Below are positions 51,262 to 60,130 of a stretch of DNA of 64,000 nt, piece by piece. Numbering within the stretch: position 1 is the first letter of the stretch; every line of letters starts with the position of its first letter. Made by a program: the position numbers and the translations under genes. Source of the DNA: Streptomyces himastatinicus ATCC 53653 (GTDB taxonomy: Bacteria > Actinomycetota > Actinomycetes > Streptomycetales > Streptomycetaceae); NCBI RefSeq assembly GCF_000158915.1, contig NZ_GG657754.1, forward strand, positions 10,312,152-10,376,151, read 5' to 3'. The notes beneath the pieces were generated by a model that was given only the letters and a program-made list of their open reading frames with translations, searched no databases and was not told where the DNA came from.

Positions 51262-53790
51262 GTGAAGGTGCGTTCTGCCCTGGGCTTGCGCAGCGTCGCC
51301 GGGCAGGTGTGCGCCCTGATGCTGGTGATCGTGACGCTGCTGGTGCTCGCCACAGGGACCACGCTGGTCCTTCAGGCCCGCAGCGGCCATGAGGCGCAGG
51401 CCCGGGGACGCGCCCTCGCCATCGCGGACACCCTCGCGGCCGCCCCCGGCGTCCGGCGGGCGCTGGAGTCGCGCGATCCCTCCGCGATCCTCCAGCCCTA
51501 CGCGACGAGGCTCCGGCGCGAGTCCGGTGTCGGCTACATCGTGGTGACCAGCCCCCGGGGCATCCGGTACGCCCACCCCGACCCGAAGCTCATCGGCACC
51601 CGCGCCACCCTTCCCCTTCATCCGGCCACGGCCGGCCGGGCCTTCACGGACGAGAACCCGGCCGCCCCCCTCTCCGGGCCCTCGATCCGCGCGGCAGTCC
51701 CCGTCACCGGGACCGGGGGCCGGGTCGTCGGCATCGTCAACGTCGGGGTCGTCCTTCCCGAGGTGTCCGCGTCGGTGAGCCGTCAACTGCCGGTGCTCTA
51801 CGGGGCCACGGCGCTCGCCCTCGTCCTCGGCGCAGCGGGCGCGGCGCTGGTCGGCCGACGGCTGCGACGCCTGACCCACCGGCTGGACCCCGCCGAGCTC
51901 ACCAGGATGTACGAACACCACGACGCCGTACTGCGCGCCGTACGGGAGGGCGTGCTCATCCTCGACGGTCAGGGTCGGCTGGTGCTCGCCAACGACGAGG
52001 CCAGGCGGCTGCTCGGACTGCCGCCTGAGGTGCGTGACGGGCGGATCACCGAGGCCGGGCTGACCCCGGAGACCGCGGGGCTGCTCGCCTCTGGCCGCGC
52101 CGTCACCGACGAGGTGATCCAGGTCGGGGACCGGCTGCTGGCCGTCAACCAGCGCCCTGCCTCGCGCCGCGGACAGCTCTGGGGCAGCGTCGCCACCCTG
52201 CGCGACACCACCGAACTCCAGGCGCTGACCGACAAGGCCGACGCGGCATGGGCGCGCCTGGAACTGCTGTACGACGCGAGCGTCCGGGTGGGCACCAGTC
52301 TCGACATGACGCGCACCGCCGAGGAACTGGGCGACGTCGCGGTCCCGCGCTTCGCCGACTTCGCCACCGTCGACCTGCTGGAGTCCGTGCTGCGCGGTGA
52401 GGAGCCGGTCGACGCGCGGTCCCGCATGCGCCGGGTCGCGGTCAGCGCCGTACGGGAGGAGCGGCCCCGCCCGCCCTCCGGCCACACCCTGCTGGCCGTC
52501 CCGCTCAGCGCCCGGGGAGTGCTGCTGGGGCAGGTCGAGTTCCGGCGCCTGGAGGGGGCCGCGCCCTTCGATGACGAGGACCGGTCCTTCGCCGACGAAC
52601 TGGTCGGCCAGGCGGCGGTCGCCATCGACAACGCCCGGCGGTACGCCCGCGAACACGCCACCGCGCTGGCGCTCCAGCAGAGCCTGCTGCCCCGCGGGCG
52701 GCCCGAACAGTACGCCGTCGAAGCCGCCTACCGCTATCTGCCCGCCCACGCCGGTGTGGGCGGCGACTGGTTCGACATCATCCCGCTGTCCGGCGCGCGG
52801 GTCGCCCTCGTCGTCGGCGACGTCGTCGGCCACGGGCTGCACGCCGCCGCCACCATGGGCCGGCTGCGCACCGCGGTCCACAACTTCTCCGTCGTCGACC
52901 TGCCGCCCGACGAACTCCTCACTCAGCTCGACGACGTGGTGGCCCAGCTCGACCAGGAGGAGGCCGCCAGGAACGGCGGAATCGGCGCGGTCGGGGCCAG
53001 CTGTCTGTACGCCGTCTACGATCCGGTCGCGCAGCGCTGCACCCTGGCACGGGCCGGTCATCCGCCGCCCGCCGTGGTCGACCCGGGCGGCACCGTGACC
53101 ATCCCGGACCTGCCCGCCGGGCCGCCGCTGGGGCTCGGCGGGCGGCTCTTCGAGGTGGCCGCGATCCCGCTGCCCGCGGGCAGCCGTCTGGTCCTCTACA
53201 CCAATGGACTCGTCCAGGACCGCGAACGGGACATCGACACCGGGCTCGATCTGCTGCGCCGGGCCCTCGGCCCCGCCGACCCCGACCCGGGGCGCACCTG
53301 CGACGCCGTGATGGGCGCCCTGCTGCCGCCGCGCCCCACCGACGACGTGGTCCTGCTCGTCGCCCGCACCACCGCCCTGGACGAGCGGCACGTCGCCTCC
53401 TGGGACCTGCCCCCGGACCCCTCCGTGGTCGCCGGAATGCGGGCCGCCGTCTCCCGCACGCTGGCCGACTGGAACCTGGACGAGGCGGTCTTCACTACCG
53501 AACTGGTCGTCAGCGAACTCCTCGGCAACGCCATCCGGCACGCCGACGGCCCCATCCGCCTGCGGCTGCTGCGCAACCGCACGCTGATCTGCGAGGTCGC
53601 CGACGGCAGCAGCACCTCCCCGCATCTGCGCCGCGCCGCCATCACCGACGAGGGCGGCCGGGGCCTGTTCCTGGTCGCCCAGATGGTCCAGCGCTGGGGC
53701 ACCCGCTACACCAGCGAAGGAAAGATCATCTGGGCGGAGCAGGACCTGCCGCGCGGCCTGCCGGAGGATCTGCCGTCGGCGCTCAGCTGA
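51262..53790 (+). CDS. Membrane sensor SpoIIE/PP2C phosphatase with PAS, GAF and anti-sigma-type kinase domains
   Basis: The 842-residue protein from GTG 51262 has a membrane helix (residues about 15-37), an extracytoplasmic sCache/DcuS-like sensor (about 40-165; VGYIVVTSPRGIRYAHPDPKLIG), a second helix, a PAS domain (VREGVLILDGQGRLVLANDEARRLLGL), a GAF-like domain (about 330-465), a PP2C/SpoIIE phosphatase (GVGGDWFDIIPLSGARVALVVGDVVGHGLHAAATMG; acidic metal ligands), and a C-terminal HATPase_c_2 domain (VVSELLGNAIRHADG, DEGGRGLFLVAQMV). Such proteins control sigma factors through anti-sigma antagonists. The start is preceded by an AT-rich patch. Its 3' end overlaps the convergent gene by 8 bp. 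Confidence 0.9.
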   Translation: MKVRSALGLRSVAGQVCALMLVIVTLLVLATGTTLVLQARSGHEAQARGRALAIADTLAAAPGVRRALESRDPSAILQPYATRLRRESGVGYIVVTSPRGIRYAHPDPKLIGTRATLPLHPATAGRAFTDENPAAPLSGPSIRAAVPVTGTGGRVVGIVNVGVVLPEVSASVSRQLPVLYGATALALVLGAAGAALVGRRLRRLTHRLDPAELTRMYEHHDAVLRAVREGVLILDGQGRLVLANDEARRLLGLPPEVRDGRITEAGLTPETAGLLASGRAVTDEVIQVGDRLLAVNQRPASRRGQLWGSVATLRDTTELQALTDKADAAWARLELLYDASVRVGTSLDMTRTAEELGDVAVPRFADFATVDLLESVLRGEEPVDARSRMRRVAVSAVREERPRPPSGHTLLAVPLSARGVLLGQVEFRRLEGAAPFDDEDRSFADELVGQAAVAIDNARRYAREHATALALQQSLLPRGRPEQYAVEAAYRYLPAHAGVGGDWFDIIPLSGARVALVVGDVVGHGLHAAATMGRLRTAVHNFSVVDLPPDELLTQLDDVVAQLDQEEAARNGGIGAVGASCLYAVYDPVAQRCTLARAGHPPPAVVDPGGTVTIPDLPAGPPLGLGGRLFEVAAIPLPAGSRLVLYTNGLVQDRERDIDTGLDLLRRALGPADPDPGRTCDAVMGALLPPRPTDDVVLLVARTTALDERHVASWDLPPDPSVVAGMRAAVSRTLADWNLDEAVFTTELVVSELLGNAIRHADGPIRLRLLRNRTLICEVADGSSTSPHLRRAAITDEGGRGLFLVAQMVQRWGTRYTSEGKIIWAEQDLPRGLPEDLPSALS

Positions 53791-55081
53791 CGATGGCGGC
53801 CGCCGTGGTCAGCAACTCGGGGAGCGTGCCGGTGAAGTCGGGCAGCAGCCGCAGCGCCAGCGCCCATGCCTCCGGATCCTCGCCCAGATGGGCGGTGGCC
53901 AGCTCCAGGACCTTGCGGCTCGCCGCGAGCGCCGCCGGGTCCGGTCCGTCCTGCCGCGTGCGGTGGTGGCGGTACGCCAGATAGGCGGCCGCGTCCCCGG
54001 CGGGCCTCGCCTCGTGCAGCACGTCCAGCGGGGTCAGCATGCCGAGGCCGGCCGCCTTGTCCAGCCAGTCGTTCCGGCGGTGATGGGGGCGCGGCAGCGG
54101 ATGGTGGCGCACCAGTTCCAGGGGGCTCGGCCGGGGCCCGGTGGACTTGTGCGGATGCGCCTGGTGCTGGAGCCGCAGATCCGCGACCCCGCACTCGGTG
54201 CGCAACTCCTCCGGGCAGTCGTCCTCGTCGGCGAGCACCACCAGCAGGGAGTCGGCGAGCGGATCGCGCTCGTGTTCCCGGGCCAGCTCCGCCCAGGGCA
54301 GCCCCGGCCCGGTCTCTTCGGCCAGCCGCTCCAGCGCCGTCGCGAAGAGGTCGCGGGTGCCGCTGTGGGCGCGCAGGAACGCCACCTGGCCCGCGGGCCC
54401 CCGGGAGCGGTCCAGCTCCGCGCGCAGCACGGCCAGACCGTCCGCCGCCTCCAGCGCGTCCCGGACGATGTCATGCGTCGCCTGCGGCAGCGGATGCTTG
54501 CGGCTGCGGCGCTCGGGGAACTCGGTCTCCTCCAGCAGCCCCCGCACCTCCTCGGCACCGTGCCGCTCCCACACCCGGACCAGCAGATACAGCTGTCCGG
54601 CGAGCGTATGCAGCTTGATCTTGCCGAGCAGGACGCGGGCCAGCCGCGGATCGCCCGACTCGCAGATCGGCAGCAGCCAGTGCCGGCGCCCACTGAGCCG
54701 CATCTGGTCGATCAGCTCATCCGTGATCGGCAGCGGTTCCGGATCCTCCGCGGCTTCCGTTGCCGGGCGGGGGCCGAACCGGCGGCCCGCGAGGATGCCC
54801 CGGCGCTGCTCGTCGGCGAGCGGCGTGTAGACGTACAGCTTGGTGTTGATCTCGGGGTCGTCGAGGACCACCAGCTCCCCGATCTTCTCCGCGGGCAGCT
54901 CCCAGTCGGAGGCGACGGAGGCCAGCACCGCTGTGCCGTGGAGGCTGACGAACAGGTCGCGCAGGGCGGGCGACGGCTGGTGGAAGACCAGCAGATGCTG
55001 GACGCAACGGCGGTCCAGATGCGGCGCCAGCGCCGTCTGCACCTCCTCGGGGGCCTGGGAGGAACAGCTGGAGGGAACCAC
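53783..55081 (-). CDS. Unknown protein B of the VWA-AAA cluster (paralog of the preceding gene)
   Basis: The 432-residue product, read from GTG 55081, has no recognised domain, signal or membrane segment. It is helix-rich with many charged residues. Two short blocks match the neighbouring gene product: GLPWAELAREHERDPL with DCPEEL (about residues 255-290) and LGEDPEAWALALRLLPDFTG near the C-terminus; these correspond to GVDWELLLAEHKREPF/DCPDEL and LGDDFAAWRALYSLLPRFTG. The gene ends an apparent four-gene operon (27 bp after its paralog) and converges with the phosphatase gene. The start is uncertain because upstream codons are weak. A partner or substrate adaptor for the AAA ATPase is a reasonable guess. 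Confidence 0.62.
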   Translation of the reverse strand: MVPSSCSSQAPEEVQTALAPHLDRRCVQHLLVFHQPSPALRDLFVSLHGTAVLASVASDWELPAEKIGELVVLDDPEINTKLYVYTPLADEQRRGILAGRRFGPRPATEAAEDPEPLPITDELIDQMRLSGRRHWLLPICESGDPRLARVLLGKIKLHTLAGQLYLLVRVWERHGAEEVRGLLEETEFPERRSRKHPLPQATHDIVRDALEAADGLAVLRAELDRSRGPAGQVAFLRAHSGTRDLFATALERLAEETGPGLPWAELAREHERDPLADSLLVVLADEDDCPEELRTECGVADLRLQHQAHPHKSTGPRPSPLELVRHHPLPRPHHRRNDWLDKAAGLGMLTPLDVLHEARPAGDAAAYLAYRHHRTRQDGPDPAALAASRKVLELATAHLGEDPEAWALALRLLPDFTGTLPELLTTAAAIVS

Positions 55082-55108
55082 CGGCGCGGAGCCCCGGGCG
55101 GACCGCTT

Positions 55109-56446
55109 TCACCGGAATACTCGGCTTCCAGCGGCCTCGGGCAGCTTCTGCCGCGGTGCTTGGCCTTTCTGCTCGACCGCGGCGGCGAACAGCTCCGTGC
55201 TCGAACCGGTGAACCGGGGGAGCAGTGAATACAGCGCGCGCCAGGCCGCGAAGTCGTCGCCCAGCGTCTCCAGCAGCCCGGCCATCGCCGGGCCGAGCGG
55301 CTCCTTGCCGTGCGGCAGCGAGGCCAGGACCCGGGAGGCGGGCCGTACCTCGGCCAGGACGCGGTCCACCGGGTACGCGCCGTCCCGGATGCCGCGCCGC
55401 AGCAGCTGCGCCAGACGGTCGTGGTGGTAGCCGTCCTTCCAGTCGGTCTCGGTGAGCAACCGCCAGGGCAGTGGGGAGGTGTCCGGGAGGCGCGAGGACC
55501 TCCGGTACGCGGCCAGCACCAGCTCGTCCGGACAGTCCGGGCGGGCCGCCAGCAGGCCGAGCTGGAGTCCGGGGAAGGGCTCGCGCTTGTGCTCGGCCAG
55601 CAGCAGTTCCCAGTCCACGCCGCCCAGCGGGAACTTCCCGTACCCGTACCTCAGCTCGCGGAGGCGACGCACCAGCTCATCGCCGGTCGGGGCCGGTGCG
55701 GTCTCCTCGGTCTCCCCGGCCGCCGCCTCACCGGCGGCTGCCTGCCCGGGGGCCGCCGTCTCGCCTGGGGAAGCCGCCTCGGCGGCCGCCCGTTCGGCCG
55801 CCTCCAGCACGGCGGCCGGGTCCTGCGCCGCCTCCGCCCGGCGCACCACCTCCGTCACCGCCGAGTGCAGGAAGGGCACTTCGGCCAGGGCTCCAAGCTC
55901 GTGCACCCCGCCGTGGGTGAGCGTCGCACGGCAGGCCCTCAGCTGCTGCTGCCTGTCCAGCGAGGTGCCGATCTTCTCGAGCACATGCCGCACCACCTCG
56001 GGGAAGGGTGCTTCCAGCGCCGGGAGCAGGTCGTACGACGCGGTGGCGGACAGCAGGAAGTCCACCAAGCCACCCGGGGCGCGCCAGCCGGGGTCGGCCG
56101 GGTGGACGGCCGCCGCGCCGAGCACGGTGCTCCGCAGGTGCTGCCGCCAGGAGCCGGGCAGCGGCTCGCTGTAGAGCGCCCGGGCCAGGCCGGGGTCGGC
56201 CAGCTCGGCGAGCCGGAGCAGCACGCCCTCGCGCTCGACGCCGACCCGCGCCCCGGCCAGGGCCTCCAGCAGCTCCCGGTCGCCTGAGGCGAACACCTCG
56301 TCCACCAGGTGGGCGGGCAGTCGCTCCCGGGACCGGAGCAGCGCCAGGGTCTCCTGCCGGAACCGGGGCAGCAGCGCCGAGGTGAGGGAGGGGCCGGCCA
56401 GCTGGAAGGCGGTGGACACCAGGGCGTCCCGTTCGTAGGTCACCAC
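55109..56446 (-). CDS. Unknown protein A of the VWA-AAA cluster
   Basis: The 445-residue product starts MVTYERDALVSTAFQLAGPSL and appears all-helical, with repeated Leu/Ala-rich stretches (LLRLAELADPGLARALYSEPL, LLPALEAPFPEVVRHVLEKIG) reminiscent of HEAT/armadillo-type solenoids. An Ala/Glu/Gly low-complexity linker lies at about 225-265. The C-terminal 180 residues share blocks with the next gene product (see its entry). No catalytic motif is seen. It lies 79 bp after the AAA ATPase gene on the same strand. Family not recognised; an adaptor or scaffold role is suggested only by context. Confidence 0.65.
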   Translation of the reverse strand: MVTYERDALVSTAFQLAGPSLTSALLPRFRQETLALLRSRERLPAHLVDEVFASGDRELLEALAGARVGVEREGVLLRLAELADPGLARALYSEPLPGSWRQHLRSTVLGAAAVHPADPGWRAPGGLVDFLLSATASYDLLPALEAPFPEVVRHVLEKIGTSLDRQQQLRACRATLTHGGVHELGALAEVPFLHSAVTEVVRRAEAAQDPAAVLEAAERAAAEAASPGETAAPGQAAAGEAAAGETEETAPAPTGDELVRRLRELRYGYGKFPLGGVDWELLLAEHKREPFPGLQLGLLAARPDCPDELVLAAYRRSSRLPDTSPLPWRLLTETDWKDGYHHDRLAQLLRRGIRDGAYPVDRVLAEVRPASRVLASLPHGKEPLGPAMAGLLETLGDDFAAWRALYSLLPRFTGSSTELFAAAVEQKGQAPRQKLPEAAGSRVFR

Positions 56447-56525
56447 GCGGGGTGCGCTCCGTTCGTCGTTCGGTCCCGCTGCGGAAGCGGGGAGGGGGAG
56501 AGTACGGAAGGGGCGGGGGCCGGGA

Positions 56526-58478
56526 TCATCCGGCGCCGGACAGCTCCGTCATCCGGGCCAGCGCGCCGATCCAGAACCGCTGCCGCTCCGGCGACTGGCC
56601 CACCATGTGGGCCGCGCGCAGCTTGGGTGGCACATGGCGCAGTAGCCGGGCGACCACTTCGGCGTTCCGCTTGAGCTGGGACACCTCGGCGTTGGCGAGC
56701 ACCTGGTGCACCAGATCGGTGTCATTGGTCCCCTCGTCCGACGTTTCGGACGCGGCCGCCAGCCGGGCCTCCCAGCGGTCGATGTCGCGCGCTATCTCCC
56801 GCAGCCCGATCACCCGCTGCTCGGCCCGCTCGGCGAGCCGCGCCTCCAGCTTGGACAGCGGCACCGGGGCGTACTCGCCCTCACCCAGATAGATCAGCCC
56901 CGTCTCCAGCGGCTGCCCGGCCTGGTGCAGCTTGATCAGCCGCTCCAGGGTGCGCTTGGTGATCCAGTCCCGGCCCTCGTCGTCGATGTCGTTCTTCCAC
57001 CACTCCAGAACCGTCTCGGCCACCTCGCCATAGGTGGCGATCAGCCACTCGTTGGCCGGGATGTCCTGCGGGCGAACCTCGTAGCTCACCGTGAAACGGC
57101 TGGCCTGGGCCACATTGTTGCTGCTGACCAGCAGCTTGCGGCCGAGGTGGTACGGCGGGTTCTGCAACGCGACCTGGGCGCGCAGGCCCGGGATCGGGCG
57201 GCCGGCCAGCGACCACTCCTGGGTGATCTCCATCAGCTTGGCGAAGGTGGCCTTGTCCTTGGGGCGGTTGTACTCGTCCCAGACGATCACCTTGGGGTCG
57301 GGGCCCACCAGCACGCGGCTGAACAGGGTGTCCAGCGTGCCGTCCGGAGTGGGGATCGGCATGCACAGATCCTCCACGTTGGTCACCGGCAGCGAGAAGT
57401 ACACCGGATCGCTTCCGCTCTCCTCGCGGACCACCGCCTTGGTGATCTCCGTCTTGCCGCAGCCGGGCGGCCCCTGGAGCAGCACCGCCCAGTTCTCCCG
57501 GACCGCGGTGCGCAGAATGCTCCGCACCGGGTCGGGGATGGTGGCGGGGTTGGGGAGGCCCAGCGCCCCGGCGATGGCGTCGAGAAGCTCGGCGGTGCGG
57601 TCCGGCCCGGGAGTGCCGTCGGCCTTGCGGTCGTGCAGCCGCAGCCGCACCCCGCCCACCAGCGGCAGCCCCCAGGACAGCGGGAACCCGGCGCGGGCGC
57701 AGTCCAGAACGTGCTGGAGGGTGCGCGGGGAGAGCAGCGAGCGCAGGTACGGGGTGAGCCCGGCCCAGATCTGGAACACCCCGGTCAGGTCCCAGTCCTC
57801 GTACCGCTCGGCCAGTGTGGACCGCCAGGCGGTGTCGTTGGCCGTGATCCGCAGGGTGACCATGCGGTCCAGGACGGCCAGATCGCTGCGCCGGGCGCTG
57901 GTCTCGGCCAGCGACTCGTTGTCCGCGAGGAAGACTCCGACGCAGCCGAGCGCGCGCAGATCGTGTTCGCCCAGTGTCCAGTTGCAGGCGATCTGCATCA
58001 GCTGGGACTGGATGGTCTCGCCGGCCTGGAGCGAGTCGTCGATGAGCAGGACGAAGGGCACACCCGGGGTGAGCTGACGTATGATCAGCTGAGTGAGCAC
58101 CAGCTCCCCGGTGCGGTCGTCCCGCACCGGCGCGTTCACCAGCAGGTCGTCGGGGGTGAGGTTGGCCGCCGGGACGAGGATCACCTCGGTGCCCGGGTGG
58201 GCGTGCGGGATATAGGACAGAAACGTCGACGTCTTGCCGATTCCGTGCTCGCCGAAGACCTGGCCGGTCTGCCGCATCGCGATCATGGCGCTGATGAACT
58301 GCTCCAGCCGTGCCCCGGTCCGCCCCGGCGGCTCGGGGTAGGTGGCGGTGGCCCGCCGGCCGCTTCCCTCGGCCGCCCGCTCCTGCCGCCCGGCGGCCGC
58401 GTCCTTCGCGGTCGGCGCCATGGTGTCCACACTGCTCACGGTGACTGCATCCCCCGTTGTTCCGTGTTGTTCGTCCAT
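56526..58478 (-). CDS. Tandem AAA+ ATPase (MoxR-like), partner of the VWA protein
   Basis: The 650-residue protein from ATG 58478 has two AAA modules. The first (residues about 55-290) has Walker A GQVFGEHGIGKTSTFLSY and Walker B FVLLIDDSLQAGE. The second (about 305-530) has VLLQGPPGCGKTEITKAVV, VIVWDEYNRPKDKATFAKLME (D-E Walker B) and sensor-1-like LLVSSNNVAQASRFT. The N-terminal 50 residues are disordered. MoxR-type ATPases work with VWA proteins to remodel or insert cofactors into targets; the VWA gene lies 50 bp upstream. Double AAA units in such systems are unusual. The C-terminal 100 residues are helical (KLEARLAERAEQRVIGLREI). Confidence 0.85.
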   Translation of the reverse strand: MDEQHGTTGDAVTVSSVDTMAPTAKDAAAGRQERAAEGSGRRATATYPEPPGRTGARLEQFISAMIAMRQTGQVFGEHGIGKTSTFLSYIPHAHPGTEVILVPAANLTPDDLLVNAPVRDDRTGELVLTQLIIRQLTPGVPFVLLIDDSLQAGETIQSQLMQIACNWTLGEHDLRALGCVGVFLADNESLAETSARRSDLAVLDRMVTLRITANDTAWRSTLAERYEDWDLTGVFQIWAGLTPYLRSLLSPRTLQHVLDCARAGFPLSWGLPLVGGVRLRLHDRKADGTPGPDRTAELLDAIAGALGLPNPATIPDPVRSILRTAVRENWAVLLQGPPGCGKTEITKAVVREESGSDPVYFSLPVTNVEDLCMPIPTPDGTLDTLFSRVLVGPDPKVIVWDEYNRPKDKATFAKLMEITQEWSLAGRPIPGLRAQVALQNPPYHLGRKLLVSSNNVAQASRFTVSYEVRPQDIPANEWLIATYGEVAETVLEWWKNDIDDEGRDWITKRTLERLIKLHQAGQPLETGLIYLGEGEYAPVPLSKLEARLAERAEQRVIGLREIARDIDRWEARLAAASETSDEGTNDTDLVHQVLANAEVSQLKRNAEVVARLLRHVPPKLRAAHMVGQSPERQRFWIGALARMTELSGAG

Positions 58479-58528
58479 GCGTGTCCGCACCCCGCCCGGC
58501 GGCGGGGACGGTGTCTTGGTTCCTCGGC

Positions 58529-59945
58529 TCAGCTGTCGCCGGTGACCACCCGGTGGCAGGCCATCGGCGGGTCATGCCGCTCCGGCCAGTCGTCACCGCC
58601 GTCCGTGATCAGCCAGATCCACCGGTCGGGCTGGGCCGGGGTCACCTTCGGGGCGTGGCCGTCGGTGACCATGATGACCGCGTCGGCGCGCTCCTCGAAC
58701 CGCCGCCCGTTCACCGCCCGCCGCCCCTCCACGTAGTCCACGACCTGCTGGAAGTCGGTGCCCCCGCCGCCGTGCACCCGCTCTCCGGGGACGAACGGCA
58801 TCAACGCGCCGTCGAAGCTCAGCCAGTGGCTCTCGACTCCCTCGGCGCGGCCCACCAGCGTGGTGATCCAGTCGATCACCGGCTGGGGCATCGACCCCGA
58901 GGTATCCAGCGCGATGACCACGACCTTGGTGCGCTCCGCGCCCCGCCGCGCCAGCATCGGATCGTGCCCGAGCGCCAGCAGCACCGCCCCCTGCTTCTTC
59001 GGGTAGATCAGCCGCTCACCCTCGCGGAGCTTGGAGGAGAGGGTGTCGGACAGCCACCGCCGCCACCACTCCACCCGCCGGGTCCGCTGCGTCTCTCCGC
59101 GCAGCTCGCCCAGCCCCATCCGCCCCCACATCTTCTCCAGCCGCTTGCCACCGCCGGTGGTGCGGTCCGCGAGGGCCAGCAACTCGTCCCGGGCGAGCCC
59201 TTCGCCGCGCAGCGCACCGCGCATCACCTCGGCAAGCGTCTCCTCGACCGCCGAGGTCACCGCCTCCGCGTCCATCGGCGGCCGCTGCTTCGCCCCGGTC
59301 CCCTCGCCGTCCCCGCCGGGGCCCATGTGGATGCACAGGACCGGCGGCACGGGAGGGGTGCGCATCCGCTTCAGCTCCCCGTAGATCCTCAGGTCGGTCT
59401 CGGTGAAGTCCCGGTAGGACAGCGGCTCGAAGCCCTGCTCGCGCAGATCGGCCACATACCGCTGGTGCACCTCGTGCGGATCCACGCCCACCGGCTCCCG
59501 GCGGGTGCCTCCCGCGCCGTCCGGCACCTCACGGGTCGGCAGGCCGCCCTGGGTCAGCCGGAGCAACGCCACATGGTTGATCGCGACTTCGGCCGCCAGG
59601 TCGAAGACCGGGTCGGCGCGCAGTTCCTCGTCCACGTACAGATGGCGGTGGATCAGATGCCGCGCCTCGTGGAACAGGACGAAGCGCACCCCGCTTTGCC
59701 CGATCGCGACGAAGAACTCCGGGTTGTACAGCAGCAGACAGGTGCCGTCCCCCGTGGCCACCACCGCCGCCGTGGCCACCGCCGTGGTGGGGATCTGGTA
59801 GTGGCACTTGGCATACAGCCACGAGGACACCACGCTGTCCTTGACCCCGAAGTCCAGCAGCACCGCCTCCTTGAGCCTGCGGCCCTCCTCGGCCACCGCC
59901 GGATCGTCCGGTTGGCAGGCCAGCAATGCCCGGCGGTCGGCCAGA
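58529..59945 (-). CDS. VWA domain protein with HExxH metallopeptidase-like domain (DUF2201-like); 5' end disrupted
   Basis: Recognisable sequence starts at LADRRALLACQPDDPAVAEE and the frame reaches the stop at 58529 (about 470 residues). An N-terminal domain carries HEARHLIHRH (residue about 100), an HExxH-type site, followed by a conserved EVAINHVALLRL helix, as in the putative metallopeptidase DUF2201. The C-terminal VWA-like domain has the MIDAS D-T-S-G-S in VVVIALDTSGSMPQPVIDW and GGGGTDFQQVVDYVEG. Upstream of 59943 the sequence is homopolymer-rich and the apparent start (59977) encodes MGGGVVGGFFF, which is not credible, so the true start is lost. It begins the VWA-AAA-A-B run. Confidence 0.8.
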
Positions 59946-60130
59946 AAAAAAAAACCCCCGACAACACCCCCTCCCAAACTATCCCCCCGCTACCTGTGCC
60001 ACTGCCTTCCCTCAGCTGAAGAGATGCATGGGGACCCCAAAAACCAAAACCGTGGGGGGGGATTTGCCCCCCCTCGCCGTGAAGGTTATCCGCCGGGTAC
60101 GACAACGCGGTGGTGAGTGGAGGGGACAGC
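59943..60130. other. Homopolymer-rich, probably artefactual sequence (assembly join)
   Basis: Runs of A10, C5, C6, G7 and repeated CCAAAAACC/CCAAAACC stretches interrupt otherwise normal coding DNA. Third-position GC bias vanishes. The stretch cuts off the start of the VWA gene on one side and the last codons of the MBL hydrolase on the other. The composition is unlike anything else in the window and resembles low-quality read ends joined together. Coordinates are approximate. Confidence 0.65.

Follow-up and report, generated by a model that had tools for sequence, protein, structure and literature searches.

The stretch of DNA analysed here, 64,000 nucleotides from Streptomyces himastatinicus ATCC 53653 (hereinafter the window; C2:10312152-10376151, C2 being one of the two contigs of the 11.0 Mb host genome), encodes a three-gene module that combines a VWA protein bearing an N-terminal HExxH domain, a tandem AAA ATPase and a long, predicted solenoid-like partner. 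The AAA-VWA core pair is a real conserved unit scattered across actinobacteria, and we see an even chance that the three genes together specify an ATP-driven AAA-VWA protein-remodelling machine with the solenoid as its partner. The module lies on the minus strand in the reading order VWA (open reading frame, ORF, at 58529-59977, annotated as 58529..59950), AAA (56526..58490) and solenoid (53783..56446, present in the window as two ORFs at 55109-56446 and 53783-55081). The gaps are 50, 79 and 27 bp, the first of these presuming that the AAA gene starts at the ATG at 58478. Re-reading the letters of the window bore out the ORF coordinates, strand, motifs and gap sizes given in a preliminary description of the locus, which had counted four genes, the last two encoding unknown proteins.

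The AAA-VWA pair is a conserved unit

Relatives were collected by scanning genome contigs with an alignment of the AAA protein, and the best 80 of 104 loci were kept; because the scan needs the exact peptide MQIACNW or MEITQEW, distant AAA relatives are missed. Loci were counted through six-frame or tblastn searches, since the gene caller sometimes took an antisense frame instead of the AAA gene (cluster c9), while the survey of solenoids away from the pair used called genes. The VWA gene lies on the same strand and less than 400 bp upstream of the AAA gene in 72 of the 80 loci. Among the remaining eight, five have the AAA gene at a contig edge, and in L084, L095 and L096 the VWA gene is found 3.1-6.7 kb upstream. 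Across genomes, the VWA protein is present in 41 of 391 members of the order (E <= 1e-20), in 2 of 396 in a sample of the phylum, one of these being the window's own, and in 10 of 61 in a first sample of relatives; within the same genus it was found in none of 36 genomes besides the window's own. These genome counts include related genomes and hence are not independent, and neither are the locus and genome-sample counts independent of each other, as the two sets overlap.

A single solenoid gene, split in the window

The two "unknown" ORFs of the window lie in one frame, parted by a single TGA at 55109-55111 and 27 bp. The closest relative, L020 from Streptomyces sp. NBRC 110028, has a single 870-amino-acid (aa) ORF with no internal stop, and a genome-wide profile match reads the window copy as one, covering positions 2-858 of 858 with one TGA. 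In all, 16 ORFs from 12 loci (L020-L022, L024-L028, L030, L031, L036 and L038, with L027 cut short by the end of its contig) cover most of the solenoid family model in the one-ORF form, and L093 and L060 have additional long solenoid ORFs with rearranged matches. As both halves share a frame and form one ORF in relatives, the module comprises three genes. What had been described as two proteins is thus one gene, a single ORF in at least 12 related loci, and the four-gene reading is ruled out. The C-terminal parts of the two window ORFs are paralogous to each other (blastp E 2e-8, about 170 aa). A caution follows for this locus, in that its apparent "twin proteins" are a split gene.

The stop codon falls in a disturbed junction (55059..55168, minus strand) with 9 indel events in 110 bp relative to L020, of which 6 are 1-base insertions. 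A second patch (59951..60127, minus strand) extends, partly through intergenic sequence, from the end of a metallo-beta-lactamase-fold gene to the VWA start, with 15 indel events at 59954-60127; the full window-L020 alignment has 77 over 8939 aligned columns. The remaining small coding indels mostly resemble compensating pairs by eye. These bursts are likely to be errors in the consensus sequence, and alternatively the window copy may have undergone a recent frameshift. Homopolymer-like letters also cluster in the second patch, for instance ten T against a regional GC content of about 71%, and they disrupt the metallo-beta-lactamase-fold gene at its end and the VWA gene at its start; the VWA start codon of the window is accordingly tentative.

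The VWA/HExxH protein

The VWA protein of the window matches the Pfam DUF2201_N domain, which is zincin-like, in its N-terminal part (E 1.6e-5, 25.1 bits against a cut-off of 23.2), as do all 74 aligned VWA proteins at E <= 0.01. The DUF2201 VWA-like model of Pfam is matched by 26 of the 74 at this threshold, the window protein scoring 11.5 bits and thus falling under the cut-off. Structure comparison assigns residues 340-472 to a VWA fold (Z about 11, root-mean-square deviation about 3, about 125 aligned), and we place the C-terminal VWA domain at 58535..58933 on this and on its invariant residues; the comparison rows mostly spanned model residues 314-472 and are uninformative on the HExxH domain. 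The best Foldseek hit of the VWA model has an E-value of 1.9e-3, and a PDB sequence search with the VWA protein gave nothing useful.

Both domains keep their key residues in all 74 sequences, window included. The metal-binding motif HEARH (59657-59671; H94, E95, H98) is invariant, and so is a glutamate 23 residues downstream of it, E121 (codon at 59588-59590), which is a candidate third ligand. In the VWA domain, the metal-ion-dependent adhesion site (MIDAS) shows its complete set of five residues, namely D349, S351 and S353 in the DxSxS motif (58892-58906), T398 (58757-58759) and D430 (58661-58663), all encoded on the minus strand. Judged from the alignment, conservation of these motifs is beyond chance, and a proteolytic output of the HExxH domain is possible. 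A conserved stretch ahead of the VWA domain, at residues 311-322, is by eye a candidate finger. The VWA domain reaches residue 472 of 473, and the protein is thus without a C-terminal effector domain.

The tandem AAA protein

The N- and C-terminal halves of the AAA protein are homologous to each other (hhalign probability 94%, E 9e-8). The first unit has the Walker A motif GEHGIGKT (58230-58253) and a Walker B ending in DD (58035-58040), and the second has GPPGCGKT (57450-57473) and DE (57273-57278), all on the minus strand; both P-loops are invariant among 33 AAA proteins. The DD of the first Walker B, where the second has DE, may mean poor ATP hydrolysis by the first unit. Every one of the 33 proteins matches Pfam AAA_5 (PF07728) at E <= 0.001, and the AAA_5 match of the window protein falls in the second unit, with 25.7-26.1 bits against a cut-off of 22. 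AAA_3 (PF07726) is absent from the 13 families that the 33 members match at that threshold and from the 21 families that the window AAA hits up to E 1; a genome-wide search places it only elsewhere in the host genome. With AAA_5 in 33 of 33 and AAA_3 in none of them, the proposal that this is a MoxR-type ATPase does not hold in the strict sense. CbbQ_C, a domain that typically follows the AAA unit in the NorQD and CbbQO systems, is likewise outside the 21 families. A PDB sequence search with the AAA protein returned short P-loop matches of about 33 residues.

The solenoid partner and its family

A structural model of the L020 solenoid is all-helical, with no strands (mean predicted local distance difference test score, pLDDT, 87.2; predicted template modelling score, pTM, 0.59). 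Its top Foldseek matches in the PDB include karyopherins, RRP12 and CAND1 (E 2e-3 to 2e-2), and these top matches we take to be largely HEAT/ARM proteins. Searches of Pfam, PADLOC and NCBIfam found no fitting family for the solenoid, with weak sub-cut-off matches only, among them one to HEAT_2 of Pfam in the L084 solenoid, and a PDB sequence search with it gave nothing useful. The solenoid is predicted to be all-helical and may be HEAT/ARM-like. The preliminary picture, in which a helical neighbour is conserved beside the AAA-VWA pair, is supported, with one protein in that place rather than two.

The solenoid family is present in 61 of the 80 loci (E <= 1e-3). Of the 19 with no match, five (L052, L081, L086, L089 and L099) sit close to the edge of a contig and three (L087, L088 and L091) have a distant solenoid candidate (hhalign 91%, E 1e-6). 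In L021 and L022 the pair is flanked by a long solenoid on either side. Across the order, the solenoid profile matches 76 of 391 genomes (E <= 1e-5), including 35 of the 41 that are VWA-positive. A solenoid lies within 10 kb of the VWA gene in 26 of these 41, and closer search added two genomes (G323 and G081) to give 28 of 41; it found no solenoid near the VWA gene in five others (G147, G214, G281, G379 and G393). Eight Catenulispora-type genomes have a distant solenoid candidate upstream of the VWA gene.

Members of the family were also observed away from the pair. The host genome encodes a second one, of 634 aa, near the other end of C2 (L100:7931-9835, about 53.9-55.8 kb), where the adjacent called genes match neither AAA nor VWA. 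Four Streptomyces-type genomes (L102, L104, L105 and L107) have one to three large solenoid-family genes of about 800-885 aa, in tandem in L102 and L105, whose neighbours we take to be hrcA- and dnaJ-like genes. A short, fast-evolving gene of the family (ratio of non-synonymous to synonymous substitution rates, dN/dS, 0.53) occurs at L115:7962-9275 and L119:8428-9765, adjoining what is presumably a dxr-like gene. Finally, L108:7873-10552 is an apparently decayed copy with a 287-aa AAA piece and a shortened solenoid, and no VWA gene among the called genes.

Partner sets across the clades

A tree of 74 VWA sequences splits deeply into two sides, one with 20 rows and the other with 54. Side I comprises the window type, with its VWA-AAA-long solenoid layout, and a sub-branch with a leucine-rich repeat (LRR) protein and the protein family c40; on side II the usual arrangement is a short solenoid upstream. 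An LRR protein (c11) occurs in 38 of the 80 loci and a short-chain dehydrogenase/reductase (SDR)-type oxidoreductase with a cysteine-rich N-terminal stretch (c3) in 51, all of these outside the window type. Partner labels, assigned by hand from the locus maps and the solenoid search, require 10 changes on the VWA tree, against a mean of 28.8 when shuffled. Two versions of the module are found in one genome in S. smaragdinus (L028, L048) and in Actinomadura alba (L029, L095). Since sister clades keep the core yet carry other repeat proteins, namely a short solenoid, often joined by an LRR protein, or an LRR protein by itself, the AAA-VWA core probably serves as a general motor, with the repeat-protein partner determining its range of clients. 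In most branches the core comes with such a protein, which suggests that the repeat protein would select the client.

The linked enzymes point to a different account, in which the AAA-VWA pair acts as a maturation chaperone, loading a linked oxidoreductase with a metal or cofactor while the repeat proteins hold the client. The SDR linkage in 51 of 80 loci speaks for it, as does the finding that c40 occurs, together with an LRR protein (c30), in 6 of 6 loci of one sub-branch (L029, L032-L035 and L037), and known AAA-VWA pairs such as NorQD and CoxDE act in this way. We observed that c40 proteins, of about 630-670 aa, resemble Fe/2OG oxygenases by eye; one member had no match in either Pfam or PDB up to E 1. 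The account is plausible for the SDR- or c40-bearing branches. However, no enzyme is conserved beside the window-type loci: the metallo-beta-lactamase-fold gene adjoins the VWA gene in the window and L020, is nearly 5 kb off in L021 and L022, and has no match at the L024 and L025 loci. As an explanation of the module as a whole, the chaperone account is therefore rather doubtful.

A proposed remodelling machine

In the remodelling reading, which we prefer, the AAA protein would assemble as a two-tier ring and the VWA protein would couple to it, by analogy with NorD and NorQ. The solenoid would recruit a specific client protein, which ATP-driven movement would remodel, and the HExxH site would either cut the presented client or hold a structural metal. 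For NorQD, a VWA finger is described that enters the AAA pore, along with a VWA C-terminus that binds the ring and a coupler twisted by ATP use (PMC13036017). We would expect a like mechanism in the module.

Several observations weigh against a remodelling machine with a solenoid partner. For both the solenoid and the VWA models, Foldseek gave no match at E <= 0.001. Even with the C-terminal profile included, no solenoid was detected in L029, L032-L035, L037, L040, L044, L054, L063 and L075, and L040, L044, L054 and L075 show none of the solenoid, SDR, LRR or c40 partner families. In L028 and L036 the solenoid is on the opposite strand. Moreover, 41 of the 350 genomes of the order with no VWA match carry the solenoid family, and hence the solenoid is not dedicated to the AAA-VWA machine.

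A bolder form of the remodelling proposal, which we put forward only tentatively, is an unfoldase-protease that swaps its partners and is distinct from Clp, FtsH, Lon and the proteasome. Its tandem-AAA motor and VWA-zincin coupler would be served by swapped repeat adaptors giving clade-specific client selection and cleavage. The adaptors would have been exchanged in actinobacterial evolution between a long HEAT-like solenoid, a short solenoid with or without an LRR protein, and an LRR protein alone. As S. smaragdinus and Actinomadura alba carry two versions each, the idea that the adaptor sets the client is testable inside one cell. If the remodelling reading is right, the AAA-VWA machines would gain one that has a metallopeptidase-like domain built in and can swap its repeat-protein adaptors, a bacterial counterpart to adaptor-guided unfoldases in layout though not in ancestry. 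We found no published description of the module in the open-licence PMC literature.

Evidence bearing on a role in conflict

The preliminary description had raised defence as a function, and the module could be read as a conflict or antiphage system like the MoxR-vWA ternary systems, with the AAA-VWA pair as threshold, the solenoid as sensor and the HExxH domain as effector. Its spread is patchy (41 of 391 genomes in the order and, with the window's own, 2 of 396 in the phylum sample), and many of the host organisms are presumably filamentous. The solenoid also evolves fast: by a simple Nei-Gojobori estimate, uncorrected for codon bias and with no significance attached, on 6 overlapping pairs of window-type loci, which share members, its dN/dS is 0.55-0.74 (the window-L021 solenoid comparison being left out), the same pairs giving 0.11-0.22 for AAA, 0.13-0.25 for GltD and 0.15-0.32 for VWA. 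A bias of the ternary systems to multicellular bacteria, as set out in PMC7159879, fits the same reading.

Against this, solenoids away from the pair likewise show a dN/dS of 0.29-0.53 (4 pairs), and the short solenoid reaches only 0.26-0.48 in the 14 closest pairs of side II, where VWA has 0.15-0.29 and one pair gives nearly equal values (0.26 and 0.24). Fast evolution is thus largely a trait of the solenoid family. In a set of 65 neighbour genes hand-picked from 88 listed at 11 window-type loci, PADLOC matched just one at E <= 1e-10 (mad2, 9e-13), and it had no convincing match for the window's four ORFs. A phage search made with the VWA protein (AAA was not tried) gave no match, while the plasmid collection, searched with the AAA protein (VWA was not tried), gave one partial match covering 20% of AAA in an 11.8 Mb Nonomuraea record. 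In many side II Streptomyces, moreover, the locus sits in conserved surroundings. Taken together, the lack of a phage match or full plasmid copy and the single PADLOC match among 65 neighbours leave the proposed defence role unsupported, and we regard the conflict reading as quite unlikely.

Flanking genes

Upstream of the module, the same strand of the window encodes the metallo-beta-lactamase-fold hydrolase, a small subunit of glutamate synthase and a protein like nitronate monooxygenase. On the other side, a SpoIIE-type sensor phosphatase gene (51262..53790, plus strand) is convergent with the module, outside its conserved extent, and overlaps the solenoid ORF by 8 bp. The same convergent arrangement is seen in L024 and L025, where we observed SpoIIE-cluster genes on both sides, upstream and convergent downstream. 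In L034 there is a 33% partial match to SpoIIE. It has no match beside the modules of L020, the closest relative, L021 and L022, and thus the functional link once suggested for this gene is not conserved.

Comparison with known systems

The comparison with described systems draws on PMC7159879, PMC13036017, PMC9976466 and PMC10910872. The host genome itself has a canonical pair of a single-AAA protein and a DUF2201 protein at about C2:1.297-1.299 Mb. We observed that the run of genes around it (L130:6781-14786, about 1.297-1.305 Mb on C2) also encodes another AAA_5 ATPase and two proteins, of 459 and 956 aa, for which Pfam gave nothing at E <= 0.001; this run we take to be YehL/YehM-like. The module resembles the canonical pair in having an HExxH domain followed by a VWA domain, beside an AAA ATPase, and the window VWA protein aligns with the host's canonical DUF2201 protein over the VWA part (hhalign 93%, E 4e-7). 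The canonical pair differs in its order (AAA then VWA) and its single AAA unit; by eye, no solenoid lies beside the L130 copy, and its AAA protein aligns weakly with the window AAA around the P-loop (hhalign 39%, E 3e-4). The presence of this pair, together with the occurrence of the solenoid family away from the pair and of some loci that have the pair without a solenoid, could be taken to mean that the module is an ordinary housekeeping-type pair, diverged from the canonical DUF2201-AAA form, with the solenoid only loosely linked. The solenoid nevertheless lies within 10 kb of the VWA gene in 28 of 41 positive genomes and is present in 61 of 80 loci, and we hold this to be very unlikely.

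The MoxR-vWA ternary systems (VMAP, iSTAND, FtsH and beta-propeller; Kaur et al., 2020, PMC7159879) are alike in combining AAA and VWA with a fast-evolving third component. In the VMAP ternary systems the gene order is given there as VMAP-MoxR-vWA, whereas the module has the order VWA-AAA-solenoid, a tandem AAA protein, and a VWA protein whose HExxH domain is N-terminal and which lacks an effector at its C-terminus. VMAP-C was found neither in the solenoid nor in the window. The VMAP-C model does find three places elsewhere in the host genome, two of them over the cut-off (C2:891496-892227 and C2:4560407-4560886), the first of which is by eye near a large NB-ARC/TPR-like protein. The missing VMAP-C, the other gene order and the lack of an effector position rule out membership in the VMAP ternary class.

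Midasin/Rea1 and dynein-type AAA_5 proteins likewise have several AAA_5-type units, and midasin also has a MIDAS domain; they differ in being one giant eukaryotic polypeptide, and the matches to them span about 33 residues at the P-loop. NorQ-NorD, CbbQ-CbbO and RavA-ViaA share with the module the combination of an AAA motor with a VWA/MIDAS coupler. To our knowledge, these three have a single AAA unit, no HExxH domain and no solenoid partner, and unlike what would be expected of NorQD or CbbQO, the window AAA has no match to CbbQ_C. The module of the window is neither a canonical DUF2201-AAA pair nor a VMAP system, and it most likely belongs with the AAA-VWA systems.

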